Assembly: GCA_026986785.1 (NCBI GenBank)
Contig: JALSNW010000014.1
Span: 62,001 to 126,000, forward strand
DNA length: 64,000 bases
DNA from: Deltaproteobacteria bacterium
GTDB taxonomy: Bacteria; Desulfobacterota; Dissulfuribacteria; Dissulfuribacterales; QOAL01
Direction: 5' to 3'
Made by a program: the position numbers and the translations under genes. Position 1 is the first letter of the stretch. Every line of letters starts with the position of its first letter. The notes under the pieces were generated by a model that was not told the DNA's origin, did not search any database, and was given only the letters and a program-made list of their open reading frames with translations. This document shows, piece after piece, positions 16,075 to 51,865 of this stretch.

Positions 16075-16077
16075 AAG

Positions 16078-17070: not shown

Positions 17071-17076
17071 TATTGG

Positions 17077-21629: not shown

Positions 21630-22430
21630 TTAATAGACGCTTCCCTTTGCATGGACAAACCCCTTCTGTGCATATATGTTGTGGCCATTGCTGGTCTGCC
21701 CATCAAGCTCTATTGCCGAGACAATTGGCTCAGCCAGCTTGAGATCCTTGGGATAGTCAATTTCGCACCACAAAAGCCCAGTGATGGAACAGGTCATGAC
21801 CGGTGTGTTGGGGGCGATCTGATCTATTACAGAAAGATACCACTTTTTGTTATATTCAGGTTGATCGATGGCCTGTCTCAGGGCTGAACGGAAGATTTCT
21901 GGGCCTCGGCCCCTGAAATATATGAGGCCAATGGATTCAGCAGATACTTGTTCGGCTGGCAGTTGTTTCCCAATCCTCATGAGCCTTCCAGCTTTTGTTA
22001 TCACCTTCATGTCGTCTGAATCGTATTTCTTTTTCGAGCTCACTGTGACTGTAATTGGCGAAGGAGGAGAGGCGAGCAGTTTGGCCAACACAGCAGGCTC
22101 AAAAAGGGTGTCTCCGTTCAAGAGTATGAAATCCTGATCCATTTCATGGCGAACCTTCCAGCAGCTGACGAGATTGTCAGCAGTTGCATAGTCGGGATTA
22201 TAGAATGTCCTTATCCTATATTGGCCAAGACGTCTTTGCACCAACTGCTCCACCTTGTGGGCTCCATAACCTGTAACCACGACTATATCATCGATATGCT
22301 CTCTTGTTAGGGTTTCTACCTGCCATTCCAATAGGGTCTTACCACATATATCAAGGAGGCACTTAGGGGTCTTGGAGGTAAGAGGCAGGAGTCTTTTCCC
22401 CTGACCTGCACTGAGTATTATCACCTTCAT
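21630..22430 (-). CDS. Cytidylyltransferase of the phosphocholine/phosphoglycerate type
   Basis: About 266 residues. The N-terminal MKVIILSAGQGKRLLPLT is the NTP-binding loop of the sugar-1-phosphate/LicC-like nucleotidyltransferases, followed by PKCLLDICGKTLLEWQ. The metal-binding LLNGDTLFEP and the later SAESIGLIYFRG and RWCEIDYP-like LLWCEIDYPKDL fit the LicC-like subgroup annotated as phosphocholine cytidylyltransferase. A member of this group, CpgD, is reported to make CDP-activated phosphoglycerate for ceramide head groups in Caulobacter. AGGAG stands 8 bp before the ATG at 22430; an ATG 21 bp upstream is less likely. It may be cotranscribed with lptF-lptG. Confidence 0.8.
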   Translation of the reverse strand: MKVIILSAGQGKRLLPLTSKTPKCLLDICGKTLLEWQVETLTREHIDDIVVVTGYGAHKVEQLVQRRLGQYRIRTFYNPDYATADNLVSCWKVRHEMDQDFILLNGDTLFEPAVLAKLLASPPSPITVTVSSKKKYDSDDMKVITKAGRLMRIGKQLPAEQVSAESIGLIYFRGRGPEIFRSALRQAIDQPEYNKKWYLSVIDQIAPNTPVMTCSITGLLWCEIDYPKDLKLAEPIVSAIELDGQTSNGHNIYAQKGFVHAKGSVY

Positions 22431-22577
22431 GAAGCTTGCTCCTGAAAACAAAACAGTGTTGACATCTGAATTTATCTGTAATCAATATAGATTCACTGGT
22501 TACAAAAGTCCAACTCTTCATCTCGGATCATGGAGTTCACAATTTTACCGAAGATGTGAGGAGGAGGGCAGGCATAT
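22431..22577. other. Intergenic region between divergent cytidylyltransferase and small ORF
   Basis: First part of the 431-bp gap between the minus-strand cytidylyltransferase and the plus-strand ceramide-synthase-like gene. TTGACA occurs at 22459-22464 on the plus strand, but no good -10 lies at 16-18 bp (AATATA at 22484 is 19 bp away). I see no repeat or RNA structure. Confidence 0.35.
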
Positions 22578-22861: not shown

Positions 22862-24004
22862 ATGGGTAATGAAAAGCTGTGTGTAAAGCCTGTAAGGAGC
22901 GGCCATGAGCTCGAGGAGTTCATCCGCATGCCTTGGCGGATCTATAAGAATGATCCGTTCTGGGTCCCTCCTCTGCATCTTGAAAGAAGGATGCACCTTT
23001 CCAAGAAAAACCCATATTTTGCACATGCTAACTGTAGGTTCTGGCTTGCCTTTGTGGGAGACGAGGTGGTTGGGCGCATCAGTGCCCAGGTGGATAGTCT
23101 TTATCTTGATAGATATCAGGATGCTACAGGTTTTTGGGGCATGCTGGAGGCTGTGGATGATCCAGAGATTTTTCAGGCACTTTTCCATACAGTGGAGCAA
23201 TGGCTTGCAAAAATGGGGATGAAGCGAGCCTTGGGGCCTTTCAATCTATCCATAAACCATGAATGCGGGCTCTTGATAAAGGGCTTTGATTCTCCCCCAT
23301 CCATGATGATGGGACATGCCCCAAGATATTATTCCAGTGCTATAGAAACCCTTGGCTACAAGAAGGCAAAGGATTTAATCGCCTATTCCATAAAGAAAGA
23401 GGATGGGATTGTCCAGAAGATCCAACAGATACTCGGCGCCAAGAAAGATACTGTACAGACGAGAAGGCTTGAGAAAAGAATGCTCGAGAGGGAACTGGAT
23501 ACCATTTTTGCTATTTTCAACGATGCCTGGTCTCAAAATTGGGGATTTGTCCCCTTTACTAAAGAGGAATACATGGATGTTGGCAGGACCATGAGTCTTC
23601 TTGCAAGACCTGAGTTTATAAGGATTGCAGAGATACAGGAGGAGCCTGCTGGTTTTATGGTAGTGTTGCCGAACCTTAATGAGGTCATTTCTGACCTTGA
23701 TGGCCGGTTATTACCCTTTGGATGGGCTAGGCTATTTTGGCGTATCAGGTTTCACAGTTTTAGGACGGGTCGCATACTTCTCATGGGTGTGAGGAGAAAG
23801 TACCAAGACAGTCTGATTGGTGCAGCAGTAAGCCTCTGCCTCATAAGAGATGTCATGAAGGAGGTGCTCAACTCCAGTATGTCGGAACTTGAGCTCTCAT
23901 GGATACTGGAGGACAATGTGGCCATGAGACGTATAATAGAGGCCCTGGGGGCAGAGCCCTATAAGATTTACCGGATTTATGAAAGAGGATTGGGGCATTG
24001 GTAG
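22862..24004 (+). CDS. bcerS: Bacterial ceramide synthase-like GNAT protein (bCerS/YghO family)
   Basis: 380 residues, no membrane helices. The stretches PWRIYKNDPFWVPPL, VGRISAQVDSL, DATGFWGMLEA, LGPFNLSINHECGLL and MMMGHAPRYY are characteristic of the long GNAT-like family that includes the Caulobacter ceramide synthase bCerS. That enzyme joins an acyl-CoA to the amino group of the sphingoid base or its 3-keto form. AGGGG precedes the ATG by about 7 bp. Its stop is followed within 10 bp by a second nucleotidyltransferase gene. The function is transferred from family and locus context; catalysis has not been shown for this protein. Confidence 0.82.
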   Translation: MGNEKLCVKPVRSGHELEEFIRMPWRIYKNDPFWVPPLHLERRMHLSKKNPYFAHANCRFWLAFVGDEVVGRISAQVDSLYLDRYQDATGFWGMLEAVDDPEIFQALFHTVEQWLAKMGMKRALGPFNLSINHECGLLIKGFDSPPSMMMGHAPRYYSSAIETLGYKKAKDLIAYSIKKEDGIVQKIQQILGAKKDTVQTRRLEKRMLERELDTIFAIFNDAWSQNWGFVPFTKEEYMDVGRTMSLLARPEFIRIAEIQEEPAGFMVVLPNLNEVISDLDGRLLPFGWARLFWRIRFHSFRTGRILLMGVRRKYQDSLIGAAVSLCLIRDVMKEVLNSSMSELELSWILEDNVAMRRIIEALGAEPYKIYRIYERGLGHW

Positions 24005-24857: not shown

Positions 24858-25823
24858 TCATCTGAGCCATGCCCCGGTGAGTGCCAGAACCATATCTCCT
24901 ATCCGTTTGGTCTTGCCAATTATCCGGACCGGTAAGCCTGTCTCTGGATCGATAAAGATATAGATCTCTTCCTGTAGCCCCAAGAGGGAAAAGGCCTCAT
25001 GCTTTTTGTCCTCGGGATCTACAGGAGAGGAAGTAATAAAGAATACAAGGGGTTTTACGGTTTTTTCTACCCGGTGTTGTCCTTGCAAACCATAGGATTC
25101 GAATGAGACCTTCATGGGTTTCAATCTCACAAGCCGCATGGTAACCTTATGGAGCTGTTTCTTTACAAATACACATAGTTCAAATGGAAAGGATGTCCTC
25201 TTCGGATCCATAACCGATGCCAAGTATAGAAGGATCGTAGGTTCAGATATGATTCCACATCCTGTTCTTCCGCCACGAGGGTAGGTGAAAAACGATTTGT
25301 GTTTTTTTGTCCACTTATCAGGGCTGAAGGGTAATTCCATGGGGCCAGAAGGCTGAAGCTTGAGCCGTTGAACACCGGTTTTACCCCAAGTGTAAGTCTT
25401 TATCCATGGCCGAGAGCCCTTTTTCCATCTTATCCTCTGGTAGGTGTTCATGGTTTTCCTGTTGAACCATACGTGTTGGATATATTCCTCTTGGGGAGGG
25501 ATCAGGGTTGAAACAGCACTTTCCACAGACAATACACGAATGTCAGGCCCTTCCAGGGGACAAGGGGCAAAGCCAGACAACGGCTTACTGAGATTGCTGG
25601 GGCAGAAACCCAAGGGGGATCTGAGTCGAACAGAGGCAGCGATTCGAGTAAAGCCCTTCCCGCCTTGGAAATAGAGTTCCCTCCAAGGGCTTTTGGGGCG
25701 CAAACGCAGGCCATGGCCTATGCTTTGATCCCTGGTATCAGAGGCCATCACCTGTAGAGATGCGATGGAAAGGGAGGCGATACATAGGAACATTACGAGT
25801 TTTTTCAAAAGGAAGTTATCCAT
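24858..25823 (-). CDS. Exported DUF3108-like protein
   Basis: About 321 residues. Residues 1-28 (MDNFLLKKLVMFLCIASLS...VMAS) form a signal peptide, so the product is periplasmic or outer-membrane attached. The C-terminal EIYIFIDPETGLPVRIIGKTKRIGD resembles the closing strands of DUF3108, a beta-rich family of unknown function in envelope contexts. The rest is Trp/Lys/Arg-rich and unrecognised. AGGA lies 4 bp before the ATG at 25823; an ATG 45 bp earlier would bury the signal peptide. It is the only minus-strand gene between the two plus-strand sphingolipid blocks. Confidence 0.6.
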   Translation of the reverse strand: MDNFLLKKLVMFLCIASLSIASLQVMASDTRDQSIGHGLRLRPKSPWRELYFQGGKGFTRIAASVRLRSPLGFCPSNLSKPLSGFAPCPLEGPDIRVLSVESAVSTLIPPQEEYIQHVWFNRKTMNTYQRIRWKKGSRPWIKTYTWGKTGVQRLKLQPSGPMELPFSPDKWTKKHKSFFTYPRGGRTGCGIISEPTILLYLASVMDPKRTSFPFELCVFVKKQLHKVTMRLVRLKPMKVSFESYGLQGQHRVEKTVKPLVFFITSSPVDPEDKKHEAFSLLGLQEEIYIFIDPETGLPVRIIGKTKRIGDMVLALTGAWLR

Positions 25824-26380
25824 TTTCCTATCTTGTTTGGCAGGCATCAATGCCCATAAGCGATGCAACTAAGTAAAAATATGGTTTTTTCCCTTTGGGG
25901 CTTACCTTTATTCTTGTTACTCTTGTTAATGTTTATTAATATTGCCTCATAATCTATAAGTATCGGTCCTTGCAGGAGAGGATATTTTTCGCGCAAGAAC
26001 CTTATAGAAGCTTATACCCATATGGCCTGGAAGCCTATATTTTGTTTTGGTGAAGGCAACTTCCCAGGCTATTGAACAGGAGGACATCATACATTTTAAG
26101 CTTAATCCAGAATAACGGTTTTTTCCTCTTTTTTATTGAGACCCTAAACTTAATTACAAAATAAAGAGTTAGAAAATTTTTATTCTTCACATCCCTTGTT
26201 GTAGGGTTGGGACAGTGAATTTCTATATCCACATGAATGGTTTTATGGACGCAGGGTTATGTATAATATTTTCAGATAGATGTCCTGCCTTGTCGCGGTT
26301 GAGCCTTACCGGGTTCTCATTATTAGTATTCGAACAAGTTAAATGAAAAATCCAATTATTGAAAGGTATTGATTTATAAT
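25824..26380. other. Long AT-rich intergenic region before the acyl ligase
   Basis: 557 bp, clearly more AT-rich than its neighbours, between divergent genes. It has two perfect TATAAT boxes on the plus strand (26262-26267 and 26375-26380, the second abutting the ATG), neither with a good -35. It also has an imperfect inverted repeat, GGTCCTTGC at 25965-25973 and GCAAGAACC at 25993-26001 (one mismatch). Short minus-strand frames here lack ribosome sites and protein-like composition. I see no RNA gene or attachment site. Confidence 0.5.
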
Positions 26381-28183
26381 ATGAAATCATCTCAAGCAGT
26401 TGTTTCTTTTCCATGCGGTAGTGAGACAGGATTGAAAGATACCACCAGACTGGCTCCAACGCCAAGCGAGAACAACATCCATGTCAGGTATGCGGATTTC
26501 GGAAGCCTTGCTGAGGCCCTGGATTATGCAGCAAATGGGCGGACAGGATACAATTTTTATACGAGAAGAGGCAGTTTGTATGCCTCCATTCCCTATGCAA
26601 GGCTCCGTCATGATGCGCGTATCTTGGCACGAAAACTTCTGTATTTGAGGGTTCCCAGGGGATCTCATGTAGCCATCGTCGCCAATACCCATCCAGAATT
26701 CGTGAGATTTTTTTTCGCATGTCAGTATGCAGGTCTAATACCAGTGCCCCTACCCATTGTCATGCACCTAAACGGGGCAGAGGCCTATGTGCGTCAACTC
26801 GCAAGGCTCCTGGATATTTGTAAAGCCAGCCTGGCAGTGGCTACAGGCGAATTTTTCAGCTACCTGACAAAGGCAGTCAGTAGTCAGAAGTTGGACCTGG
26901 AGTTCATTGGCAGGCCTGAGGATTTCTATGCCCTGCCTGAATCCAGCGTCCAATTGAAGCCTCTTGAACAGGGTGAGTTGGCTTATCTCCAGTTTACTTC
27001 AGGCAGTACCCGCTTCCCCAAGGGGGTAATGATTACACAAGAGGCTGTTCTCAGTAACCTCCATGCCATAACAAGGCATGGCATAGGTTGCAGAAATGGG
27101 GATCGAGCAGTTTCGTGGCTACCTTTCTATCATGACATGGGCCTTGTGGGGCTTGTCCTATCTACCATGGCCTCACAGCTTTCAGTGGATTTTTTCAGTA
27201 CCAGTGATTTTGCCATGAGGCCAGGGCTTTGGCTCAAACTGATATCGGACAATAGGGCAAGTATTTCTTTCAGCCCTCCTTTTGGTTATGAACTTGCCGC
27301 ATTGCGCCTAAGAGACAGTGATGTGGAACGTTATGATCTTTCCATGTGGAGAATAGCTGGCGTCGGTGCCGAGATGATAAGACCAGAGCTGCTGGAGCGC
27401 TTTGCAAGTAGGCTCAAGCCATGTGGATTTGATCCAGGTGCGTTTTTATCGTGTTATGGCATGGCTGAATGTTCTTTGGCCGTGGCATTTGCCCATCGGA
27501 ATATTGGTATAGAGGTCGATTGTGTGGATGCTGAGCGTCTGGCCACCTACAGGGAGGTAGTGCCTGTTGGACAGATAAAACCAGGGACGAAGACCCAGAC
27601 CAGGGTGAAGACCTTTGTGAAGTGTGGCAAACCACTGCCAGGCTTTGAGGTAGAGATCCGGGATCCATCCGGCAGGCCAGTCCCTGCTGGTAAATGTGGC
27701 ATTCTATATCTCAAGGGACCCAGTGTAATGTCAGGGTATCTCGGGGATGCAGAAGCCACTGGTAATGTCCTTGGTGAAGACGGCTGGTTGAATACTGGGG
27801 ATACGGCCTATCTGTCTGGGGACGATATTGTGATAACTGGGCGTTCCAAGGACCTGATCATAATCAATGGGAGAAATATCTGGCCCCAGGATATAGAATA
27901 TCTGGCTGAATCCCTTGATGAGGTCAGGATAGGTGATGCCTGTGCCTTTGCCCTTCAAGATGAACGGGGTAGGGAGAGGGCTGTACTCGTCATACAGTGT
28001 AAGAACGGGGACAGATCGGCAGACAAGACCTTGACAAGTACCCTCAGAAAGCTGGTGCTCAGGGAACTTGGGATAGATTGCCATGTTGTCGTGGTCCCCA
28101 AAAATACCCTGGTGAGGACAACCTCTGGCAAGCCATCACGGAGTGCTACGAGAAAGGTATGTATTGAAAAGGGCCTGATCTAA
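26381..28183 (+). CDS. aasR: Fatty acyl-AMP ligase / acyl-ACP synthetase of the sphingolipid locus
   Basis: 600 residues, ANL superfamily of the FAAL type. The AMP-binding core YLQFTSGSTRFPKGVMIT, SWLPFYHDMGLVG, SCYGMAECSL, WLNTGDTAYL and GRSKDLIIINGRNIWPQDIE is complete. The C-terminal Lys region SGKPSRSATRK is also present. It activates a fatty acid as acyl-AMP and probably loads it onto the dedicated ACP encoded 4 kb downstream. The ATG at 26381 sits 14 bp after GAAAGG; an in-frame TTG at 26369 is the alternative, and an in-frame stop just upstream excludes longer forms. In Caulobacter such a ligase is among the genes needed for ceramide synthesis. Confidence 0.88.
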   Translation: MKSSQAVVSFPCGSETGLKDTTRLAPTPSENNIHVRYADFGSLAEALDYAANGRTGYNFYTRRGSLYASIPYARLRHDARILARKLLYLRVPRGSHVAIVANTHPEFVRFFFACQYAGLIPVPLPIVMHLNGAEAYVRQLARLLDICKASLAVATGEFFSYLTKAVSSQKLDLEFIGRPEDFYALPESSVQLKPLEQGELAYLQFTSGSTRFPKGVMITQEAVLSNLHAITRHGIGCRNGDRAVSWLPFYHDMGLVGLVLSTMASQLSVDFFSTSDFAMRPGLWLKLISDNRASISFSPPFGYELAALRLRDSDVERYDLSMWRIAGVGAEMIRPELLERFASRLKPCGFDPGAFLSCYGMAECSLAVAFAHRNIGIEVDCVDAERLATYREVVPVGQIKPGTKTQTRVKTFVKCGKPLPGFEVEIRDPSGRPVPAGKCGILYLKGPSVMSGYLGDAEATGNVLGEDGWLNTGDTAYLSGDDIVITGRSKDLIIINGRNIWPQDIEYLAESLDEVRIGDACAFALQDERGRERAVLVIQCKNGDRSADKTLTSTLRKLVLRELGIDCHVVVVPKNTLVRTTSGKPSRSATRKVCIEKGLI

Positions 28184-28213
28184 CACAAGTCTTTTGTGCA
28201 GGAGGTGGGGGCA

Positions 28214-28870
28214 TTGAAATTAGGATTTTATAGGGGTGTCTTAGGGCAATTGTGTCTCGTACTTTTACTGTGTGGTTGTAGTACAGTCTATTACAATACA
28301 ATGGAGAAGATGGGTATCCATAAGCGGGACATACTTGTGGACAGGGTGGTTGCAGCCAGAGATACCCAGGAAGAGGCAAAGGAAGAGTTCGCCTCTGCCC
28401 TTGAACATTTTAGCAGTGTTGTGAACTTCGATGGTGGCGATCTTGAAGACAAATACCAGGAGTTGAAGGATGAGCTTGAAAGGATGGAAGACAAGGCCAA
28501 GGAGGTTCACGAAAGAATCGCTGCGGTAGAAGACGTGGCAGAGGCCCTTTTTGACGAGTGGGAAGAGGAGCTTGATCAATATAGCAACCCGAGGCTTAGG
28601 CGGGCCAGTGAGGAAAAATTGCGTCAGACAAGGAGGCGTTACAACCAGTTGATACGGGCCATGAAGAGGGCAGAGGCAAAGATAGAACCTGTCTTGGTTC
28701 CGTTGAGGGACGAGGTTCTTTTTCTCAAACACAACCTAAACGCCAGGGCTATAGCATCGCTGAAAGTAGAGCTTGCAAGGATCGAAACCGATGTCTCCAG
28801 GCTTATCAGAGACATGGAACACTCCATAAAGGAGGCCGATACCTTTATAAAGACCCTCAACAACGAATAG
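28214..28870 (+). CDS. DUF2959 lipoprotein
   Basis: About 218 residues. A signal peptide (KLGFYRGVLGQLCLVLLLCGC) ends in the lipobox LLCGCS, so it is a predicted lipoprotein. The mature part is almost all helix and coiled coil, starting STVYYNTMEKMGIHKRDILVDRV, the DUF2959 signature. Function unknown. A TTG at 28214 with AGGAGG 8 bp upstream is the best start; a GTG at 28196 would start inside that site and lengthen the leader. It lies 30 bp after the acyl ligase stop on the same strand. Confidence 0.8.
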   Translation: MKLGFYRGVLGQLCLVLLLCGCSTVYYNTMEKMGIHKRDILVDRVVAARDTQEEAKEEFASALEHFSSVVNFDGGDLEDKYQELKDELERMEDKAKEVHERIAAVEDVAEALFDEWEEELDQYSNPRLRRASEEKLRQTRRRYNQLIRAMKRAEAKIEPVLVPLRDEVLFLKHNLNARAIASLKVELARIETDVSRLIRDMEHSIKEADTFIKTLNNE

Positions 28871-29336: not shown

Positions 29337-30260
29337 ATGGCTTCTGTAGTTTCAGTTACTGGGGCTACTGGTTTTATAGGCAGTGCAGTTGTCAGGAGGC
29401 TCTTGGTCGCAGGGATCAGGGTCAGGGCGCTTGTCAGATCATGCTCTACTGAAAAATGTTGGGGACATCCTGGGCTGGAGTGGATCAAGGGCCAGCTTGG
29501 GGACTTGGACAGCCTTCAAGGGCTAATAAAGGGTTCGGATGCAGTGATTCATTGCGCTGGACTGGTACGTGGCATCAAGAAAGAGGATTTTGAGAGAATA
29601 AATTCAGAGGCCGTTAAGGCCCTGGCCGAGCTTTGTTCCATACAGCCTTGCCCTCCGAGATTCCTTTTGATCTCCTCCCTTGCAGCAAGACATCCTGAAT
29701 TGTCCTTTTATGCCTTGAGCAAGAAAAAGGGGGAAGAGGCCTTGACCACCTTTTCTGCCCGTCTTTCCTGGACCATACTGAGACCTCCTGCCGTTTACGG
29801 TCCAGGTGACAGGGAGCTTAGGCCTGTTTTTAGGTGTATTCGACTGGGTGTGCTTCCATGTCTTGGTGCGGGTTCTAACCGTTTCTCTCTTCTCCATGTC
29901 CACGACATGGAAGAGGCCGTGCTTTCTTGGTTCAACAATAGCCCTGAAAGTGGGCAAATCTATGAACTCCACGATGGGGTGCCTGGTGGGTATTCCTGGG
30001 ATGACGTAGCTGCCTTGGCAGAGCGTATTTTCAAGAGACGGCTATTAAGGCTCAGGATACCCTTTCCGGTATTGGCAGCAATTGGTCATCTCAATCTTGC
30101 AATGGCCCGTCTTCATGGCAATCCCCCCATGCTGACCCCAGGAAAGGCCAGGGAACTTGCATATCCAGATTGGGTCTGTGATAATACACGAATTCGTCAG
30201 GATACTGGCTGGGCACCAAGGATTATGCTAAAAGATGCCCTGGTTAGTGGAATGATTTGA
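29337..30260 (+). CDS. cerR: NAD-dependent epimerase/dehydratase family, ceramide reductase candidate (CerR)
   Basis: 307 residues, extended short-chain dehydrogenase. The Rossmann motif is VTGATGFIGSAVV (G-x2-G-x2-G), and the catalytic pair is in FYALSKKKGE (Y-x3-K), preceded by LISSLAA with the catalytic Ser. The C-terminal part (RLLRLRIPFPVLAAIG) resembles 3-beta-HSD-like lipid reductases. In Caulobacter the related CerR reduces the 3-keto group of the ceramide intermediate. Here it precedes the ACP and serine palmitoyltransferase genes, supporting the same role. GGGAAAGG lies about 6 bp before the ATG. Confidence 0.83.
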   Translation: MASVVSVTGATGFIGSAVVRRLLVAGIRVRALVRSCSTEKCWGHPGLEWIKGQLGDLDSLQGLIKGSDAVIHCAGLVRGIKKEDFERINSEAVKALAELCSIQPCPPRFLLISSLAARHPELSFYALSKKKGEEALTTFSARLSWTILRPPAVYGPGDRELRPVFRCIRLGVLPCLGAGSNRFSLLHVHDMEEAVLSWFNNSPESGQIYELHDGVPGGYSWDDVAALAERIFKRRLLRLRIPFPVLAAIGHLNLAMARLHGNPPMLTPGKARELAYPDWVCDNTRIRQDTGWAPRIMLKDALVSGMI

Positions 30261-30360: not shown

Positions 30361-30606
30361 ATGAAGGCTGATAAAGTTGTATTGGAAAAGATAGTGGAGA
30401 TATTACAGCCACATGTGTCAGGTGGAGTAGAGATAACCCCAGCCATGGACATAGAGAGCGATCTGGCAATCGATTCTCTCAAGTCCATGGAAATACTTGC
30501 TAATCTCGAGGATGCCTTTGATCTTTCTATACCTATAAACGTACTTTCTGAGGTGCGTACTGTAGAAGATCTGGCCATTCAGGTACAAAAGCTTATTGAG
30601 GCTTGA
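30361..30606 (+). CDS. acpR: Acyl carrier protein of the sphingolipid locus
   Basis: 81 residues, the normal ACP length. The phosphopantetheine attachment motif is DLAIDSLKSMEIL with Ser39. It has the usual four-helix pattern and acidic character. It differs from housekeeping ACPs in lacking the exact DSLD motif (DSLK here), and it sits away from fatty-acid genes, so it is a specialised ACP. It likely carries the acyl chain from the ligase to serine palmitoyltransferase, whose gene starts 4 bp after its stop. Confidence 0.9.
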   Translation: MKADKVVLEKIVEILQPHVSGGVEITPAMDIESDLAIDSLKSMEILANLEDAFDLSIPINVLSEVRTVEDLAIQVQKLIEA

Positions 30607-30610
30607 AATA

Positions 30611-31792
30611 ATGGGGCTTTTTGACAAGTTTAAAAATATTTCAACCTCTATAGCCGTCTTGGAAGACAAGTGCAGTGCATTTTTTCATATAGTGGTTGAA
30701 GACCTTTTGTCCAGCACCGAGGCTGTAATTGATGGAAGAAAGGTGATATTGGCTGGCACCAACAACTATCTCGGTCTTCCGCTTCGACAAGAGTGTATCA
30801 AGGCTGCCTGTGATGCCATTCAAAGGGAGGGCACTGGCACCACAGGTTCCAGGATGGCCAATGGGACCTATTCGTCCCATATCGAGTTTGAAAAAGATCT
30901 GTCAGATTTCTTTGGACGATCTACTACCATAGTCTTTACCACTGGTTACAGTGCCAATCTGGCCATGCTATCCACCCTTGTAGGACCCAGGGATACAGTG
31001 CTCTTGGATGCTGATTGCCATGCAAGTATCTATGATGGCTGTCGGTTGGGAGGGGTACAGGTGTTCAGATTCCATCACAATGACGTGGAAGACCTGGAAA
31101 AGCGGTTGAAAAGACTCAAGAGTCAAGATGGGGAGGTGCTCATTGTGGTGGAAGGCCTCTACAGTATGTTGGGTGACAGGGCGCCCCTGGCGGATATAGT
31201 TGCCCTCAAAGAAAAATATCATGCCTACCTTTTGGTGGATGAGGCACATTCCCTTGGTGTACTGGGAGAGAAGGGTAGGGGGCTGGCAGAAGAGGCTGGT
31301 GTCGAGGCCGAGGTCGATTTTATAGTGGGTACCTTCAGTAAGAGTCTCGGGTCGGTGGGTGGTTTTTGCACCAGCAATCATGAAGAATTGGAGATCATAC
31401 GCTATGCCAGCCGCCCGTATGTATTTACGGCATCCTCTTCACCAGCAAATATTGCTGCAGCAAAGGCTGCCTTGTCCATAATTCGTTCAGAGCCCCAATT
31501 AAGGGTGAGACTTTGGGAAAATGCCACTGCCCTGTATGGGCGTTTGAAAGACATGGGGTTCAAGGTGGGTCCAGAGCCGAGTCCCATCATACCAGTCAGG
31601 TGTGACAGAATTGAAGAGGCGTTTAGGATATGGAATGGCCTTTTGGAAAATGGGGTATACGTAAACATGGTTCTTCCCCCTGCCACTCCTGATGGTACAG
31701 CCCTTTTGAGATGCAGCCTGAGCGCAGCCCACTCGCGGCAACAGGTAGAAAAGATCGCCCAGGCCTTTGGGGCTGTCCAATCTCCGGTTTAG
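30611..31792 (+). CDS. spt: Serine palmitoyltransferase (alpha-oxoamine synthase family)
   Basis: 393 residues, PLP-dependent. It condenses serine with an acyl thioester to 3-ketosphinganine, the committed sphingolipid step. Visible features are NNYLGLPL, GTGTTGSRMANGT, LLDADCHASIYDG, LVDEAHSLGVLG (PLP-contact Asp and His) and VGTFSKSLGSVGG with the PLP-lysine K244. The TFSKS lysine motif favours Spt over biotin-pathway BioF or Kbl, as does the adjacent specialised ACP. The ATG at 30611 has GAGG at about 9 bp; a TTG at 30596 inside the ACP gene is less likely. Confidence 0.9.
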   Translation: MGLFDKFKNISTSIAVLEDKCSAFFHIVVEDLLSSTEAVIDGRKVILAGTNNYLGLPLRQECIKAACDAIQREGTGTTGSRMANGTYSSHIEFEKDLSDFFGRSTTIVFTTGYSANLAMLSTLVGPRDTVLLDADCHASIYDGCRLGGVQVFRFHHNDVEDLEKRLKRLKSQDGEVLIVVEGLYSMLGDRAPLADIVALKEKYHAYLLVDEAHSLGVLGEKGRGLAEEAGVEAEVDFIVGTFSKSLGSVGGFCTSNHEELEIIRYASRPYVFTASSSPANIAAAKAALSIIRSEPQLRVRLWENATALYGRLKDMGFKVGPEPSPIIPVRCDRIEEAFRIWNGLLENGVYVNMVLPPATPDGTALLRCSLSAAHSRQQVEKIAQAFGAVQSPV

Positions 31793-31834: not shown

Positions 31835-33547
31835 ATGAAATTCATTATCAGTTTTCTCAAAAGATATCCCTTGCAGAGTATGCTCACACTTTTTGCAATG
31901 CTTTTTGCAGGGATTGCCGAAGGTTTTGGCATGTCCATGCTCTTGCCCCTTCTCAGTCTTTCAGCAGCAGGAGCGGACAAGGTGGAAAAGGCCCACAAGG
32001 CAGGCTCTGCCCTTGAAAGGGCCATCTCTGGTTTTTTTTCCTTCCTGGGCATGGAGCCCACAATCGGTCTTTTGTTAATCATCTTTGTGATCAGCATAAT
32101 AATCAAGGTGACATTGGTCCTTCTGGCCAACAGAAAAGTGGGTTACATGGTGGCAAATGTGGCTACAGACCTTCGGCTTTCATTATTGCAGGCGATATTC
32201 AATAGCAGTTGGAGCTATTACGTGCGTCAGCCAGCCGGAAGTATAACAAATGCCTTTGCCACCGAGGCTACCAGATCGGCCGATGCCTATCTCTTTGGCA
32301 TGCGCCTTATAGCCATGCTCATGAATGCCGTTGTCTACACCTGTGTTGCCCTCATGGTTGCCTGGAAGGCCACGGTGATGGCTGTGATTCTTGGTTCTGG
32401 CATACTCTATGTGTTGAGGTTCATGGTGAAAAAGGCCAAGATGGCAGGGCGTGACCAGACGCTGCTATTGAAGTCTCTTCTCTCCTTTCTTACAGATATC
32501 CTGCTGTCCATAAAGCCTCTGAAGGCAATGGCCAGGGAATATGCTGCTGAGCGTATACTCCAACAGAAAACCTTGGCCCTTAGGAGCGCTCTTCAGAAAC
32601 AGGTATTTAGCAAAGAGGCTCTTCGTGCCCTCCAGGAGCCCCTTACCACCATCTTTTTTGCTACGGGTCTATATATTGCCTTGGTCGTTCTGGATCTGCC
32701 TCTGTCAAATGTGTTGGTAATGGTGTACATGCTGGCAAAGATCCTCAAGGCCCTTCAACGGGCCCAAAAAGAGCACCAATCCATGGTCATTGCAGAAAGC
32801 GCCTATTGGTCATTGCTCTCCAGGATCCAGGCAGCAGAAGAGCAGAGGGAGGAATTCAAGGGCAGGAGGAGCCCCAAATTCGAGCATTTCATTTCTCTCC
32901 AAGGCGTCACCTTTGGTTACGGAGAAAGACCGCTGCTTCATGGGCTGGACATGGAGATCAAGAAGGGTTCCTTCACTGCATTGATTGGTCCGTCAGGTGC
33001 AGGCAAGACAACTGTTGTGGATATCATAACAGGTTTGATTCATCCCCAAGCTGGCAGGGTTTTGATCGATGATCTGTCCCTGGATGAGATCGATCTCGTC
33101 CAGTGGCGCAAGAAGATTGGCTATGTACCTCAGGAGACCCTTCTTCTCCATGACACGGTCTTTTTCAATATTACCCTGGGAGACGAGACGATAGCTGAGG
33201 CTGATGTGATAGAGGCCTTGAAAAAGGCTGGGGCTTGGGAGTTTGTGGCACAGTTGCCAAAAGGTATCCACAGCGTTGTGGGAGAAAGGGGAGGGCTCAT
33301 CTCCGGAGGGCAGAGACAGAGAATCACGATAGCGCGTGCCCTTGTAAAAGATCCTTGTCTTCTCATAATGGATGAGGCCACGAGTGCTCTGGATCCTGAG
33401 ACAGAATTAGAGATATGCCGCACATTGAGAGGCTTGAGGGACTATGTCACCGTGTTGGCCATCTCGCATCAGGAGACCATCCTCAAAGAGGCCGATACTG
33501 CTTTCAAGCTTGAGCACGGTATGGCAAGAAAGGTCGGGAGGCCATGA
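31835..33547 (+). CDS. MsbA-like ABC exporter (candidate sphingolipid flippase)
   Basis: 570 residues, fused permease plus ATPase half-transporter. About six membrane helices occupy residues 1-310. The ATPase has Walker A IGPSGAGKTT, Q-loop YVPQET, signature ISGGQRQRI, Walker B LLIMDEATSALD and the switch His in AISHQE. It should dimerise and flip or export a lipid or lipid-linked glycan across the inner membrane. It starts 42 bp after spt on the same strand and overlaps the following glycosyltransferase by 4 bp, so a sphingolipid cargo is suggested by position only. It is shorter than E. coli MsbA and could serve another lipid. Confidence 0.88.
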   Translation: MKFIISFLKRYPLQSMLTLFAMLFAGIAEGFGMSMLLPLLSLSAAGADKVEKAHKAGSALERAISGFFSFLGMEPTIGLLLIIFVISIIIKVTLVLLANRKVGYMVANVATDLRLSLLQAIFNSSWSYYVRQPAGSITNAFATEATRSADAYLFGMRLIAMLMNAVVYTCVALMVAWKATVMAVILGSGILYVLRFMVKKAKMAGRDQTLLLKSLLSFLTDILLSIKPLKAMAREYAAERILQQKTLALRSALQKQVFSKEALRALQEPLTTIFFATGLYIALVVLDLPLSNVLVMVYMLAKILKALQRAQKEHQSMVIAESAYWSLLSRIQAAEEQREEFKGRRSPKFEHFISLQGVTFGYGERPLLHGLDMEIKKGSFTALIGPSGAGKTTVVDIITGLIHPQAGRVLIDDLSLDEIDLVQWRKKIGYVPQETLLLHDTVFFNITLGDETIAEADVIEALKKAGAWEFVAQLPKGIHSVVGERGGLISGGQRQRITIARALVKDPCLLIMDEATSALDPETELEICRTLRGLRDYVTVLAISHQETILKEADTAFKLEHGMARKVGRP

Positions 33548-34731
33548 TGAGGATTGGTATCTTCATGTATGGTCTTACTTGGGGTGGGGCAACGAGGAGG
33601 ATAATCACCCTGGCAAAGGGCTTTGAGGAAAGGGGGCATCACGTAAGGTTACTGGTGGTAGAAAAGGAAGGCCACCTGAGTAGTACAGTCTCTGGCATGG
33701 ATACGGTGGAGCTGAACAAGGGGATCTTGAAGACCATCCAGAAAAGGTTTTCCAAAAAGCGAAGGATCGATCTCAGCCGCTGGGCCCTGGCCCAGTACCT
33801 GAGAGAGGCCGAGAAGTATAGGGGATTGGACATCCTGCTTTCCGCAGCCAATCATGCTCATATCGCCGCTATTTCGGCAAGACTGTTGTCAGATACACAC
33901 ATCCCCCTTGTCATAAGGATAAGCAACCATCTGACATGCTCCTTGAAGGGCCAAAGAGGGTTCAGGAAGAGGATAAGGTTTCTCAAGGCATGCAGGCTGT
34001 ATCCCCAAGCAGACGGTTTTATAGCGGTTTCAAGACAGATTGCACAGGATGCAGCAAAGGCCACAGGCATCCCCAAGGACAAGATCAACGTGGTCTACAA
34101 TCCTGTCTTCACACCAGAATTGCTTCAGGAGGCCTGCCAAGAACCAAACCATCCGTGGCTCAGACTACGCGGGGCCAAAGGGCCAAAGATCTTGTTGGGG
34201 GCTGGCAGGCTTGTAGGTCAAAAGGATTTTGCCACCTTGGTAAGGGCCTTCAAGTTTGCCCAAGACAAGACAGATCTTAGGCTCATAATACTTGGTGAGG
34301 GCAAGGAAAGGCCTTTTCTCGAAAAACTCATATCTCGACTCCAGCTCCAGGACAAGGTAGATCTTCATGGATTTGTGCCGAATCCTGTCTCTTTCATGGC
34401 CAGGGCAGATCTATTCTGCCTCTCTTCCAGGTTTGAAGGGCTGCCTGGTGTTATCATCGAGGCAATGGCAACAGGATGTCCCATTGTCAGTACAGACAGC
34501 CCAGGCGGGGCAAGGGAGATCCTCGAAGATGGAAGATATGGAATCTTGGTGCCAACAGGGGATGAACAGGCCCTGGCAAAGGCCATACTGAAGGCCCTTG
34601 ACATCGATTGGGATGGTGAAGAACTTAAAAGACGAGCCGAGAGTTTCTCAGTGGACAAGGCGGTCAAGGGCTATATCTCCCTGTTTGAAAAAGTCCTTGC
34701 TGAGAAATCCCAGGGGAAAGCAAAGACATAA
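33544..34731 (+). CDS. GT4-family glycosyltransferase
   Basis: 395 residues with the GT-B fold. The N-terminal domain begins RIGIFMYGLTWGGATRRI (glycine-rich acceptor loop), and the donor domain contains LLGAGRLVGQKDF and the E-x7-E region SSRFEGLPGVIIEAMATGCPIVSTDSPGG. It transfers a sugar from a nucleotide donor with retention; donor and acceptor are unknown. The ATG overlaps the ABC exporter stop (ATGA), so they are translationally coupled. A role in glycosylating the lipid made by this locus is likely but not proven. Confidence 0.92.
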   Translation: MMRIGIFMYGLTWGGATRRIITLAKGFEERGHHVRLLVVEKEGHLSSTVSGMDTVELNKGILKTIQKRFSKKRRIDLSRWALAQYLREAEKYRGLDILLSAANHAHIAAISARLLSDTHIPLVIRISNHLTCSLKGQRGFRKRIRFLKACRLYPQADGFIAVSRQIAQDAAKATGIPKDKINVVYNPVFTPELLQEACQEPNHPWLRLRGAKGPKILLGAGRLVGQKDFATLVRAFKFAQDKTDLRLIILGEGKERPFLEKLISRLQLQDKVDLHGFVPNPVSFMARADLFCLSSRFEGLPGVIIEAMATGCPIVSTDSPGGAREILEDGRYGILVPTGDEQALAKAILKALDIDWDGEELKRRAESFSVDKAVKGYISLFEKVLAEKSQGKAKT

Positions 34732-34759
34732 CCAAAGAGACATAAGAGTAAGAAAGATC

Positions 34760-35938
34760 GTGATCAGAGTCTGTTTCCTTTTCAATCATTACTTCGTACA
34801 TCAGGTCCCTCATGCAGCACCATATGCCTTCGAGTTATCCAGGAAATATCCTGAAATAGACGTGACCATAGCCTGTTCATCTACCCAAGAGATGGCCTTC
34901 GTCAAGGCCATAAGCACTCTTTATCCAGGGCACAGATGCAGATACAAGCTGCTATACGTACCCTGGTATTATAGTCTCATCGACCCACTGGTATCCAAGT
35001 GGGTCTTTAGCCGCAAGAGGATAGTACTCAAGAACAACCTGTCTTTCTTTCGGCAAATGGATGCACTGGTAGCCCCAGAGAGAAATTGTATGCAACTCAG
35101 GACCAGGTTTGGGCTCAAGGATCTCATAATGATCCATGCCAGGCATGGTGCAGGAGATAGGGAAGGAGGATTCGATGATAGGTCAGGAGCCTTTGACCTC
35201 ACCCTGCTTCCTGGGCAAAAATATGTGGACAGGCTGAAGGAACTCGGCTACTTGAAGAAAGGTGGCTACGCTGTGGTAGGCTGGCCAAAATTCGAGGTGG
35301 TACAGGGACTTTGGCCAGAGAAGAAGCGTATCTTCGACGATCAAAAACCAGTGGTGGTCTACAATCCCCATTTTGACCAGAGGGTGTCTTCCTGGGCATC
35401 AATGGGGCTCCAGGTGTTGGACTTTTTCAAGAACCACCCGGAGTACAACCTGATATTCGCCCCCCATGTGGTCCTTTTCAAGAGGAGGAGGCGTCACAGG
35501 GCCAGGCTCCCAAGGAGATATTTCAAGATAAACAATATCCACATTGATCTTGGCAGCCCTGCTTCTGCAGATATGACATACATGAGGGCAGCTGACATAT
35601 ATCTTGGTGATGTCAGTAGCCAGGTCTATGAATTCCTGTTGGAGCCCAGACCATGTATCTTTCTAAACGGCCATCATGTGGATTGGCATGATAATCCTTT
35701 CTATTATCATTGGAATCTCGGACAGGTTGTGGATCAGGTGGAACCAGGGCTGGAACAGGCCTTGAACCAGGCCTTCTCTACACACAAAGGGCTTTATCTC
35801 GACTTGCAAAAAGAGGCCTTTGACTATACCTTTTTCAATGAGCCAGGGACCACGGCAGCAGAAAGGGGGGCAAGAGCCATAGCGGAGTTTCTCCTCAATA
35901 GGCTAAGGATGAAGGCCTTCAACCCTTCAAGTGCCTGA
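34760..35938 (+). CDS. CDP-glycerol glycerophosphotransferase-like protein
   Basis: About 392 residues from a GTG, GT-B-like fold without membrane helices. The C-terminal ADIYLGDVSSQVYEFLLEPRPCIFLN is the hallmark of the teichoic-acid glycerophosphotransferase family (typically T-D-Y-S-S-x-x-F-E), although the Asp-Tyr is Asp-Val here. A middle VVYNPHFDQRVSSW and NLIFAPHVVLF also fit. These enzymes add phosphoglycerol-type units from CDP donors, which would suit the cytidylyltransferase genes of the locus. An in-frame extension back to 34598 lies inside the glycosyltransferase gene and is not protein-like, so I reject it. No strong ribosome site is seen. Confidence 0.75.
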   Translation: MIRVCFLFNHYFVHQVPHAAPYAFELSRKYPEIDVTIACSSTQEMAFVKAISTLYPGHRCRYKLLYVPWYYSLIDPLVSKWVFSRKRIVLKNNLSFFRQMDALVAPERNCMQLRTRFGLKDLIMIHARHGAGDREGGFDDRSGAFDLTLLPGQKYVDRLKELGYLKKGGYAVVGWPKFEVVQGLWPEKKRIFDDQKPVVVYNPHFDQRVSSWASMGLQVLDFFKNHPEYNLIFAPHVVLFKRRRRHRARLPRRYFKINNIHIDLGSPASADMTYMRAADIYLGDVSSQVYEFLLEPRPCIFLNGHHVDWHDNPFYYHWNLGQVVDQVEPGLEQALNQAFSTHKGLYLDLQKEAFDYTFFNEPGTTAAERGARAIAEFLLNRLRMKAFNPSSA

Positions 35939-36028: not shown

Positions 36029-36757
36029 TTAAATCCTGAAGTTTTCACCCAGATACACGGCACGCACCCTGGCGCTCTGGTATAGGTCTTCAGGGTGGCC
36101 AGCCTCCAGGATCTGTCCCTGGTTGAGGATATAAGCCCTGTCACATATCTTGAGTGTTTCTCTCACATTGTGATCTGATATGAGTATGCCAATGCCTTTG
36201 GCCCTTAGCCTTAGAACAAGATTTTGTATTGTGGTCACTGTTATCGGGTCGATACCGGCAAAAGGTTCGTCCAACAACATGAAAACAGGATCGATTGCAA
36301 GGGCCCTGGCAATCTCGAGACGCCTTGCCTCCCCACCCGAAAGGCCACCAGCACAGTCGTCCGCCAAGTAGCTTAGGCTGAATTCGTCAAGGAGTATATC
36401 AGCTCGTCTAAGTTGTTCTTGCCTCGTCAGGTTCTGAAATTCCAAGACAGCCAAGAGATTTTGTTTTACACTGAGGCCTTGAAAGAGGGAGCGTTCCTGA
36501 GGGAGATAAGATATGCCTCTATGCGCCCTCTCTGAAAGGTCCAGCCTGGTGAGTTCTCTTTCATCGAGAAAGATAGCCCCCTTGTCAGGTCTTAGAAGGC
36601 CTGCCACCATGTAGAAGGTGGTGGTTTTGCCCGCCCCGTTAGGGCCTAAGAGTCCAACTATCTGGCCAGATTGCACCTGAATGGAAAGCCCATCCACCAC
36701 TTTTCTGCCAGCAAATGATTTTTCAAGGTCTTGGGCCAAAAGCCTTCTGTCTTTCAT
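36029..36757 (-). CDS. lptB: LptB-type ABC ATPase, second copy
   Basis: 242 residues. Walker A GLLGPNGAGKTTTFYM, signature GLSGGEARRLEIAR, Walker B FMLLDEPFAGIDP and SDHNVRETL are all LptB hallmarks, and the C-terminus ends YLGENFRI as LptB does. It has all residues for ATP hydrolysis. It is roughly half identical by eye to the LptB at 51131-51865, so the two are paralogues rather than a recent duplication. It follows an LptC gene by 3 bp and converges on the sphingolipid operon end. Confidence 0.9.
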   Translation of the reverse strand: MKDRRLLAQDLEKSFAGRKVVDGLSIQVQSGQIVGLLGPNGAGKTTTFYMVAGLLRPDKGAIFLDERELTRLDLSERAHRGISYLPQERSLFQGLSVKQNLLAVLEFQNLTRQEQLRRADILLDEFSLSYLADDCAGGLSGGEARRLEIARALAIDPVFMLLDEPFAGIDPITVTTIQNLVLRLRAKGIGILISDHNVRETLKICDRAYILNQGQILEAGHPEDLYQSARVRAVYLGENFRI

Positions 36758-36760
36758 CGG

Positions 36761-37330
36761 TCAGTGCCCTTCGCGGTTTTTCCCTTGATCCAGAATGGCA
36801 TCTATATCGGATAGAATAAGTAGTTTTTCCGTCTTGGTGTCTATCAAGAGGCCATTGGCATCTACACAGGAATCATCAAATACAACATGGACTGGGGCTG
36901 TCGTCTTCAAGAGACCGGTCCTTTCATCATATTCCAGCCAGTTGGTGGTGATAATACTGTCTGGCCGATTCTCTATGCGTACATGCCCTATGACCTTTAG
37001 TATAGAGTTGTGGGAATCGATCTGCCCCTGATCGGCTGTAAGCACAATATCTCCGCCTTTCTTTTGATGAAAGACCAATTTTATCCGTTCTGCCTTGATG
37101 ATGTCATTTTTGCTATCATGTCTGGCCTGCGTTGCAGAGAGGGTCCAGATGGCCCTTCCATGTTTAGTCTTGGTGTATTTGATATTTTTGAGGACGAGAT
37201 CTGGAATCACGTTTTTCTCGGACCGGTGCGATGATACCTCCCAGGAGTCCCAGGTCATCCATGCAACTCCAGCAAGAAGAGATCCAAGTAGGAAAAAGAA
37301 TAGGATTTTGAGGATATTTTTTTGTGGCAA
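36761..37330 (-). CDS. lptC: LptC family protein, second copy
   Basis: 189 residues. One N-terminal membrane helix (ILKILFFFLLGSLLAGVAW) is followed by a periplasmic beta-jellyroll (VLKNIKYTKTKHGRAIWTLSA, then DIVLTADQGQIDSHNSIL, VIGHVRIENRP). These are the LptC features: a single anchor and OstA-like strands that pass lipid from LptFG to LptA. An in-frame stop lies shortly upstream and no ATG is available, so it must start at the TTG at 37330, with a poor ribosome site. It is coupled to the second LptB gene. No LptA-like gene adjoins. Confidence 0.85.
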   Translation of the reverse strand: MPQKNILKILFFFLLGSLLAGVAWMTWDSWEVSSHRSEKNVIPDLVLKNIKYTKTKHGRAIWTLSATQARHDSKNDIIKAERIKLVFHQKKGGDIVLTADQGQIDSHNSILKVIGHVRIENRPDSIITTNWLEYDERTGLLKTTAPVHVVFDDSCVDANGLLIDTKTEKLLILSDIDAILDQGKNREGH

Positions 37331-50003: not shown

Positions 50004-50570
50004 GTGGCAAAAAAGCATCTATTCTGGTCTGTACTAACATTATTGATGGCTATATTGCTGTTTGCCTTCTGGCAGGCGGAGACTGGGAATAGATTTTTCC
50101 GATCCCCTGATTTCAGGCGGCTCAAGGCAGATTTGGTCTTATATGGGATAAGATATCGCCGTGATACCAAGGCTAAAGGCTCACAGTGGGTGGTCAGGGC
50201 AGAGACGGCCCGTCTGTATGAAAAAAAGAGGACATGTGAATTTGACAAAGTGGACATACTTTTTTTGCCTCATAGCAAAGATTCCTTGAGGGTGGTTGCC
50301 AACAAAGGGTTATATGATCTGGACAAGGGGGATCTCAAGGTTTCAGGCCACGTGATAGTAAGCGGCTATCGGGGTTATGTCCTTTATTCAGAGAAGCTTT
50401 TCTACCATCCAGATACCATGACCATAGAGGTCCCAGGTAGAGCGGAATTGGTGGGTACAGGAGGGAACAGACTCCTGGGCACTTCCATGGTATATTATAT
50501 GAAAGAAGGTAGATTGACATTGGCCTCGCCAAGGGCCGTGCTCTCCGATGAGGAGTCTGCAATAGACTGA
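50004..50570 (+). CDS. lptC: LptC family protein, canonical-locus copy
   Basis: 188 residues from a GTG. One N-terminal membrane helix (FWSVLTLLMAILLFAFW) is followed by a beta-rich periplasmic domain (LVLYGIRYRRDTKAKGSQW, VVANKGLYDLDKGDLKVSGHV). It hands lipid from LptFG to LptA. Overall it looks more divergent from textbook LptC than the copy at 36761-37330. The gene order kdsC-lptC-lptA-lptB is the standard one, so it most likely serves LPS. Confidence 0.88.
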   Translation: MAKKHLFWSVLTLLMAILLFAFWQAETGNRFFRSPDFRRLKADLVLYGIRYRRDTKAKGSQWVVRAETARLYEKKRTCEFDKVDILFLPHSKDSLRVVANKGLYDLDKGDLKVSGHVIVSGYRGYVLYSEKLFYHPDTMTIEVPGRAELVGTGGNRLLGTSMVYYMKEGRLTLASPRAVLSDEESAID

Positions 50571-50585
50571 GAAAGAGGTGTCGTC

Positions 50586-51125
50586 GTGAACATGGAAAAG
50601 AGATATTCGGCTTTGTTCCTTTTGTGTAGCATACTTCTTTTGTCGGCCGTTCTTATTCAGGCTGCTTTTGCCGATAAGATAAGGGGAAAGAAACAGTCCG
50701 AGGCCATCAGGATCACCAGTGATAAGATGGAGGTCAAGGATAAGAAGGGTACTGTTGTGTTTATGGGGAATGTGGTGGCCAAAAAGGGTGACTTGACCAT
50801 ATATTCTGATGTGTTGGAGGTCTTTTACGCCAAAAAGATTGGGAAAACTGGTTCCACTACCAAGGGGGACAGTGGAAGTAGGAGGCTCAAAAAAATTGTG
50901 GCCAGGGGACATCTGAAGATCGTTCAGGGAAAGCGTAGGGCTACAGCCAAGGAGGCGATCTATTACAAGCCTCAGGAAAAGATAGTGCTTCTCAAGGATG
51001 CCAGGATATGGGATGGTTCAAATACAATTAAGGGGGATAAGATAACCCTGTTTGTCAATGAAAATAGGAGCGTGGTTGAAAGTTCCGGGAAGGATAGAGT
51101 GGAAGCTGTTGTCTATTCGGATTGA
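50586..51125 (+). CDS. lptA: LptA, periplasmic LPS-bridge protein
   Basis: 179 residues with a signal peptide (YSALFLLCSILLLSAVLIQAAFA) cleaved before DKIRG. The mature OstA fold is shown by IRITSDKMEVKDKKGTVVFMGNVVAKKGDL and the second repeat YYKPQEKIVLLKDARIWDGSNTIKGD. It polymerises into the bridge from LptC to LptD. It is the only LptA in the window. A GTG at 50586 or ATG at 50592 are both possible. It overlaps the region just before lptB. Confidence 0.92.
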   Translation: MNMEKRYSALFLLCSILLLSAVLIQAAFADKIRGKKQSEAIRITSDKMEVKDKKGTVVFMGNVVAKKGDLTIYSDVLEVFYAKKIGKTGSTTKGDSGSRRLKKIVARGHLKIVQGKRRATAKEAIYYKPQEKIVLLKDARIWDGSNTIKGDKITLFVNENRSVVESSGKDRVEAVVYSD

Positions 51126-51130
51126 TCAAG

Positions 51131-51865
51131 ATGACGTCTGAGCGGAGCCTCTTGGAGGCAAAGGGATTAGTCAAGATCTATAAGAAGAGAAGAGTCGTGG
51201 ATGGAGTGAATCTATGCCTGGAAAATGGGAGCATAGTAGGGCTTCTCGGTCCAAATGGAGCTGGCAAGACTACAACTTTTTATATGATGGCAGGGCTTAT
51301 AGTACCAGACGATGGGAGGGTCTTTCTGGATGGCCGGGATATCACCGAGCTTCCAATGCATAAGCGGGCAAGGTTAGGGATAACCTATCTCCCCCAGGAA
51401 CCTTCTGTCTTCAGGAAATTGAGTGTGGCAGACAACATCAGGATTGTCTTTGAAAATCGTCAGTTGGACAGGAAGGAGCAGGAGGTAATGGTGAATCGCC
51501 TCTTGGAAGAGATGGGACTAACGAGCTTGGCTGCTCAAAGGGCCGAATCCCTTTCAGGTGGAGAAAGACGGCGTGTGGAGGTGGCCAGGGCCCTTGCTAC
51601 AGACCCCAAATTTATTCTATTGGACGAGCCGTTCGCCGGTGTGGATCCTTTGGCCGTGGCTGACATTCAGGAGATAATAAAAGGATTGAAGGCAAAAGGC
51701 ATAGGCATTTTCCTTTCCGATCACAACGTTCGGGAGACCTTGACTGTGTGTGATAGCGCATATATTGTAAGCGAAGGAAAGGTTATAGAACATGGTAGCC
51801 CTGAAAAGATTGCATCTAGCCGAATTGCAAGAAAAATTTATCTGGGAGAAGGCTTTTCACTTTAG
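51131..51865 (+). CDS. lptB: LptB, LPS-export ABC ATPase, canonical-locus copy
   Basis: 244 residues. Walker A GLLGPNGAGKTTTFYMMAGL, signature SLSGGERRRVEVAR, Walker B FILLDEPFAGVDP and SDHNVRETLTVC are intact, and the C-terminus YLGEGFSL is typical. It powers LptFG. A TTG at 51122 would overlap lptA; the ATG at 51131 gives the usual short N-terminus. rpoN follows 6 bp after its stop, the classic order in proteobacteria. Confidence 0.95.
   Translation: MTSERSLLEAKGLVKIYKKRRVVDGVNLCLENGSIVGLLGPNGAGKTTTFYMMAGLIVPDDGRVFLDGRDITELPMHKRARLGITYLPQEPSVFRKLSVADNIRIVFENRQLDRKEQEVMVNRLLEEMGLTSLAAQRAESLSGGERRRVEVARALATDPKFILLDEPFAGVDPLAVADIQEIIKGLKAKGIGIFLSDHNVRETLTVCDSAYIVSEGKVIEHGSPEKIASSRIARKIYLGEGFSL

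Follow-up and report, generated by a model that had tools for sequence, protein, structure and literature searches.

A second LptB, LptC, LptF, and LptG set associated with a sphingolipid gene cluster in a deltaproteobacterium

In Caulobacter crescentus, the sphingolipid gene cluster CC_1168–CC_1152 includes LptC2, LptF2, LptG2, and a flippase (PMC11324152). In 2024 these proteins were suggested to carry phosphosphingolipids to the outer membrane, although transport was untested, and the route taken by sphingolipids to the bacterial outer membrane was stated to be unknown; the fitness profiles of LptC2 mutants are similar to those of spt mutants (cofitness 0.52; PMC11324152). The other relevant system is the canonical lipopolysaccharide (LPS) extractor LptB2FGC (PDB 6MHU, 6S8H, 9DOH). 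The window (the whole stretch of 64,000 nucleotides of deltaproteobacterial DNA analyzed here; Table 1) resembles the Caulobacter cluster in that a second LptC, LptF, and LptG and a candidate ABC-type flippase are encoded in one cluster with spt, cerS, aasR, cerR, and head-group genes, and the role proposed for the Lpt2 genes is the same in both. The window adds lptB2 paired with lptC2, whereas no second LptB is named for the cluster in the main text of the Caulobacter study (PMC11324152). The four window proteins pass the LptB, LptC, LptF, and LptG models; unlike canonical LptB2FGC, they are encoded in a sphingolipid cluster, in a genome with another LptB/C/F/G set, the LptB2 groove is altered, and no second LptA or LptD was found. 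Thus, a sphingolipid function for LptC2/F2/G2 has already been proposed in Caulobacter (PMC11324152); what the window adds is a dedicated LptB2 with a changed groove, together with an EipB-like periplasmic protein that often accompanies these genes. A literature search on second LptB copies returned nothing relevant.

Table 1. Coordinates of the sphingolipid-cluster and lpt features of the window, with the basis of each assignment.
Feature	Coordinates	Strand	Basis
Head-group block	15115–18276	-	
Uncharacterized protein (head-group block)	15115–16074	-	No family match
Lipid kinase (head-group block)	16078–17070	-	
CDP-alcohol phosphotransferase (head-group block)	17077–18276	-	
lptG2, sphingolipid-cluster LptG	19336–20406	-	TIGR04408, 318.6 bits (cut-off 240)
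lptF2, sphingolipid-cluster LptF	20423–21514	-	TIGR04407, 320.4 bits (cut-off 230)
Nucleotidyltransferase, directly upstream of lptF2	21630–22451	-	PF00483/PF12804
bcerS-like, putative bacterial ceramide synthase (380 aa)	22862–24004	+	Cluster position, co-occurrence
u24858, secreted protein, predicted EipB/DUF1849-like beta-spiral	24858–25868	-	AlphaFold2, pLDDT 89
aasR-like fatty-acyl-AMP ligase	26369–28183	+	PF00501
cerR-like NAD-dependent epimerase/dehydratase	29337–30260	+	PF01370, cluster position
Acyl carrier protein, acpR-like (81 aa)	30361–30606	+	D-S-L motif, place directly before spt
spt, serine palmitoyltransferase	30596–31792	+	NF047599, 607.1 bits (cut-off 500)
MsbA-like ABC exporter, candidate sphingolipid flippase	31835–33547	+	PF00005 and PF00664; under MsbA equivalog cut-off
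GT4 glycosyltransferase, convergent with lptB2	33544–34731	+	
Glycerophosphotransferase-like protein, convergent with lptB2	about 34730–35938	+	Weak, below Pfam cut-off
lptB2, second LptB ATPase	36029–36757	-	TIGR04406, 334.9 bits (cut-off 240)
lptC2, second LptC (TTG start)	36761–37330	-	TIGR04409, 82.0 bits (cut-off 38); PF06835
lptC1-lptA-lptB1, housekeeping set	50004–51865	+	Between kdsC and rpoN
lptC1	50004–50570	+	
lptA	50586–51125	+	
lptB1	51122–51865	+	

The lptB2 and lptC2 genes encode bona fide LptB and LptC: both proteins exceed their model cut-offs, and LptB2 has intact ATPase motifs (Walker A, GPNGAGKTT; LSGGE; Walker B, LLDEPFAG; H-loop, SDHN). LptB2 is 55% identical to LptB1. 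The lptC2 gene lies upstream of lptB2 with 3 bp between them, in the gene order lptC-lptB. LptF2 and LptG2 also pass their cut-offs, and the coupling-helix residues Glu84 and Glu88 are kept. As the original prediction held, lptF2-lptG2 lie within the sphingolipid cluster next to a head-group gene, with the nucleotidyltransferase gene on one side and the phosphoesterase/CDP-alcohol phosphotransferase/lipid kinase block on the other; they are ~15 kb from lptB2, which adjoins spt. The head-group block is conserved beside lptF2G2 in other clusters, and the nucleotidyltransferase gene adjoins lptF2 in many. Of the biosynthetic genes, the aasR-like sequence was the bait that yielded 80 named clusters; the bcerS-like protein matches no Pfam or NCBIfam family and is a putative ceramide synthase by context, as the head-group assignment is likewise putative. 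A DUF2959 lipoprotein-like gene (28196–28870) is also present in the cluster, between aasR and cerR.

Across the genome (2.59 Mb in 52 contigs, 99% complete) there are two LptC and two LptB proteins, the next-best ABC matches being just 34–36% identical, and four LptF/G proteins: besides the pair in the window, contig C45 encodes another (lptF1-lptG1; G000:C45:5249–7382), with both reading frames open. Whole-genome searches with PF03968 and PF04453 returned a single LptA/OstA-type protein, encoded by the lptA of the housekeeping set, and a single LptD match, respectively, although a strongly diverged copy could escape such searches; a complete second trans-envelope Lpt machine, with its own LptA and LptD, was therefore not found. 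The original prediction had counted two LptB, two LptC, and one each of LptF, LptG, and LptA. The LptB, LptC, and LptA counts stand, but those of LptF and LptG are true of the window only; the LptB-LptC pair is indeed extra, but the second set is larger than was claimed, the cluster lptF and lptG being second copies as well. Because LpxC is present, this bacterium very probably makes LPS.

The C45 pair is found in the order rmlD-lptF1-lptG1-nth, which is shared with G013 and, as lptF-lptG-nth, with G004, both without sphingolipid genes. Because the C45 pair occupies a slot common to relatives that lack sphingolipid genes, we assign the window pair to the sphingolipid cluster. Despite its housekeeping position, the C45 pair matches solved LptF/LptG structures far more weakly (1e-15 and 3e-11) than LptF2 (8e-45) and LptG2 (9e-54). 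LptG1 (L005:6312–7403, G000 contig C45) scores 197.8 bits, below the NCBIfam LptG cut-off of 240 that LptG2 passes, so that automatic annotation may give the name LptG to the wrong pair. LPS-contact residues of E. coli LptG/LptF (K34, K40, K41, R133, R136, R33, and K317; PMC6744409) were compared as an indication of which pair binds LPS, and proved uninformative, K34/K40/K41 being lost in both pairs. The original prediction had offered a shared permease as an alternative, by which one LptFG pair swaps between two LptB-LptC sets. Within the window a single LptFG pair is visible, but the C45 pair, with its open frames and a slot conserved in Spt-negative relatives, contradicts this arrangement unless that pair is inactive, and we regard it as very improbable.

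Among 119 relatives (second LptB counted at E below 1e-60), two LptB are encoded in G000, G002, G007, G009, G010, G011, G012, G014, G016, and G018, all of which are Spt-positive members of the window's family; none was found outside it. The Spt-negative family members (G004, G005, G008, G013, and G015) carry a single LptB and a single LptC along with two LptF/G proteins, and lack LptB2, LptC2, and LptFG2. An LptB-LptC duplication in sphingolipid-negative relatives, which the original prediction had named as evidence against itself, was not seen: a second LptB occurs in none of these five, nor in any Spt-negative genome among the 119. Two fragmented assemblies (G001 and G003) yielded the LptB2-type copy alone, and no Spt was recovered from G003, which is 55% complete; in G006 and G017 the contigs with sphingolipid genes end short of the expected lptB2 position. 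For resolved family members, Fisher's test gives p = 0.0002, with the proviso that relatives are not independent; a tree of housekeeping LptF1 and LptG1 leaves just 2–3 independent contrasts, in all of which LptFG2 tracks Spt, and in some of which LptB2 does so, with none opposed. The distance between lptB2 and spt is 0.2–5 kb in G007, G009, G010, G011, G012, G016, and G018. The lptC2 gene is not always beside lptB2, being placed elsewhere in genus g4, and G007 and G012 show one LptC.

Many Desulfobacterota, Nitrospirota, and Gammaproteobacteria have the lptF2-lptG2 arrangement in their spt/bcerS/aasR clusters. In the LptF tree, cluster-linked LptF2 from across these phyla form one clade (SH-aLRT 93) near gammaproteobacterial LptF, and the LptF1 copies from those genomes fall outside it; LptG2 behaves similarly, with less clean grouping. 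Outside the family, Spt-positive genomes (G026, G033, G041, G053, and G100; in G100 the bCerS-like match is 47% identical but the Spt match no more than 41%) combine LptFG2 with a single LptB and a single LptC, so a lone LptB1 is evidently able to work with both permeases. From these gene contents, LptFG2 is the broader companion of sphingolipid synthesis across phyla, whereas the dedicated ATPase was added in a narrower group. In L208 (G046:C124), LptF2 and LptG2 are 52% and 49% identical to those of the window, with head-group genes and an MsbA-like exporter alongside; the best Spt and bCerS matches in G046 are only 38% and 26% identical, possibly owing to transfer or a missing contig.

We consider it probable that lptC2-lptB2 and lptF2-lptG2 together encode a second inner-membrane Lpt extractor, composed of an LptB dimer with LptF, LptG, and LptC, the substrate of which would be the sphingolipid that this cluster produces. 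The original prediction had included a second Lpt machine directed at sphingolipids, and synteny, joint absence from sphingolipid-negative relatives, and separate permease clades all support it. The extractor might instead carry another lipid, for example a variant form of LPS or of a glycolipid, the spt neighborhood being a general envelope-lipid island; glycosyltransferase and phosphotransferase-like genes adjoin lptB2 (and the GT4 and glycerophosphotransferase-like genes are kept there in several relatives). However, LptF2/LptG2 track spt/aasR/bcerS across phyla and are missing from family members without spt, and in Caulobacter cofitness ties LptC2 to sphingolipid genes (PMC11324152), which leaves this alternative improbable.

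In genus g4, the gene directly beside lptB2 encodes a protein (L065:6511–7440; homologues in L069, L073, L075, and L077) that matches PF24793 GINT1_N (2e-55), the N-terminal domain of plant glucosamine inositolphosphorylceramide transferase; this is a hint that the head group is of the inositol-phosphate type, with an added sugar. This conserved open reading frame had been considered as a hidden LptC. Large g4 reading frames between bcerS and lptF2, considered as possible outer-membrane partners, by eye resemble exopolysaccharide (pga-like) genes.

In the LptB tree, family LptB2 is separate from LptB1 (branch support 96/93); support for monophyly of all cluster LptB, i.e., of the family together with L132 (a Desulfobulbaceae MAG) and L196, is low (58/18). 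Over 36 genome pairs, LptB2 diverges faster than LptB1 (median identity 54% vs. 71%). When 12 LptB2 were compared with 21 LptB1 (numbering after PDB 5L75), the differences fell at positions 87, 91, 92, and 143, which are in or close to the groove where the coupling helices of LptF/G sit. Position 87 is P/A in LptB1 and R in all 12 LptB2; position 92 is K/R in 20 of 21 LptB1 and G/D/E in every LptB2; position 143 changes from R to A, again in 12/12; and R91, invariant in LptB1 (21/21), is kept in only 4/12 LptB2, with Q in the window copy. F90, R91, L93, and R150 form the LptF/LptG coupling-helix contact site on LptB, and in E. coli loss of the R91 charge alters ATPase coupling (PMC5082905); F90, L93, and R150 are kept in nearly all copies. 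On the permease side, coupling-helix position 77 of LptF2 is S/N in 11/11 family members and G in 18/21 others. The groove and position 77 would fit an ATPase and permease that are co-adapted, although one ancestral event may explain all of the changes. LptB of L132 and L196 lacks the R87/G92 signature.

These residues bear on whether LptB2 and LptC2 are interchangeable spares, with both LptB driving both permease pairs and more ATPase supplied when sphingolipid is made. Beyond the family, Spt-positive genomes do have one LptB serving LptFG1 as well as LptFG2, and the coupling-helix glutamates are conserved and identical in both LptFG pairs. Set against this are the differences from LptB1 at positions 87, 92, and 143 in all 12 LptB2, the loss of R91 in 8/12, the faster divergence of LptB2, and the finding of no LptB2 where spt is absent; we therefore think it unlikely that LptB2 and LptC2 are spares. 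LptB2 may pair with LptF2G2 only.

The u24858 protein has no Pfam family, and the DUF1849 model found no match in 14 members. Its predicted structure is best matched by 6NTR (Z 14.6 over 208 residues, rmsd 3.5), the EipB/DUF1849 protein of Brucella, which it resembles in predicted beta-spiral fold and secretion but not in sequence (6% identity). EipB is a periplasmic beta-spiral protein of unknown function, proposed to act in lipoprotein or outer-membrane protein handling (PMC10787603). Other structural matches were not relied on: 9fqr_Xh (Z 14.2, rmsd 4.6) is a sperm axoneme chain, and matches to porins, LmcA, and LolA-like proteins are near the noise level of Z 8. Most family clusters contain the gene, as do L132, L141, and L196, but no other named cluster does; those other clusters also lack lptB and lptC. 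It is thus mostly found where lptB2 and lptC2 are, with L132 and L196 being two further named clusters with lptB, lptC, and u24858 together; an exception is G010, in which lptB2 and lptC2 are present but the contigs examined do not encode u24858. As a guess, u24858 could be a carrier or adaptor.

For the sphingolipid extractor that we favor, synthesis of the lipid would take place at the inner membrane, and the MsbA-like exporter would probably flip it; LptF2G2C2, powered by LptB2, would then extract it and pass it to a periplasmic carrier. LPS would use LptB1, LptC1, and the LptF1G1 pair of contig C45. Since the searches returned a single LptA and a single LptD, the second extractor most likely joins the LPS bridge, and the second machine seems to be complete no further than the inner-membrane extractor. 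Alternatively, the EipB-like u24858 may act as a separate carrier or adaptor. The boldest version, in which the ATPase groove of LptB2-F2-G2-C2 has co-changed with its own permease, there is no exchange with the LPS extractor, and sphingolipid passes to a u24858 carrier rather than the LptA bridge, is in our estimation doubtful.

The separate LptB/C/F/G set beside the sphingolipid genes suggests that sphingolipids in this bacterium have a separate pump directed toward the cell surface. With two such sets in one organism, one of them found only together with sphingolipid genes, Lpt substrate specificity becomes testable by swapping parts, and close relatives with and without the second LptB offer a natural comparison of a shared versus a dedicated ATPase.
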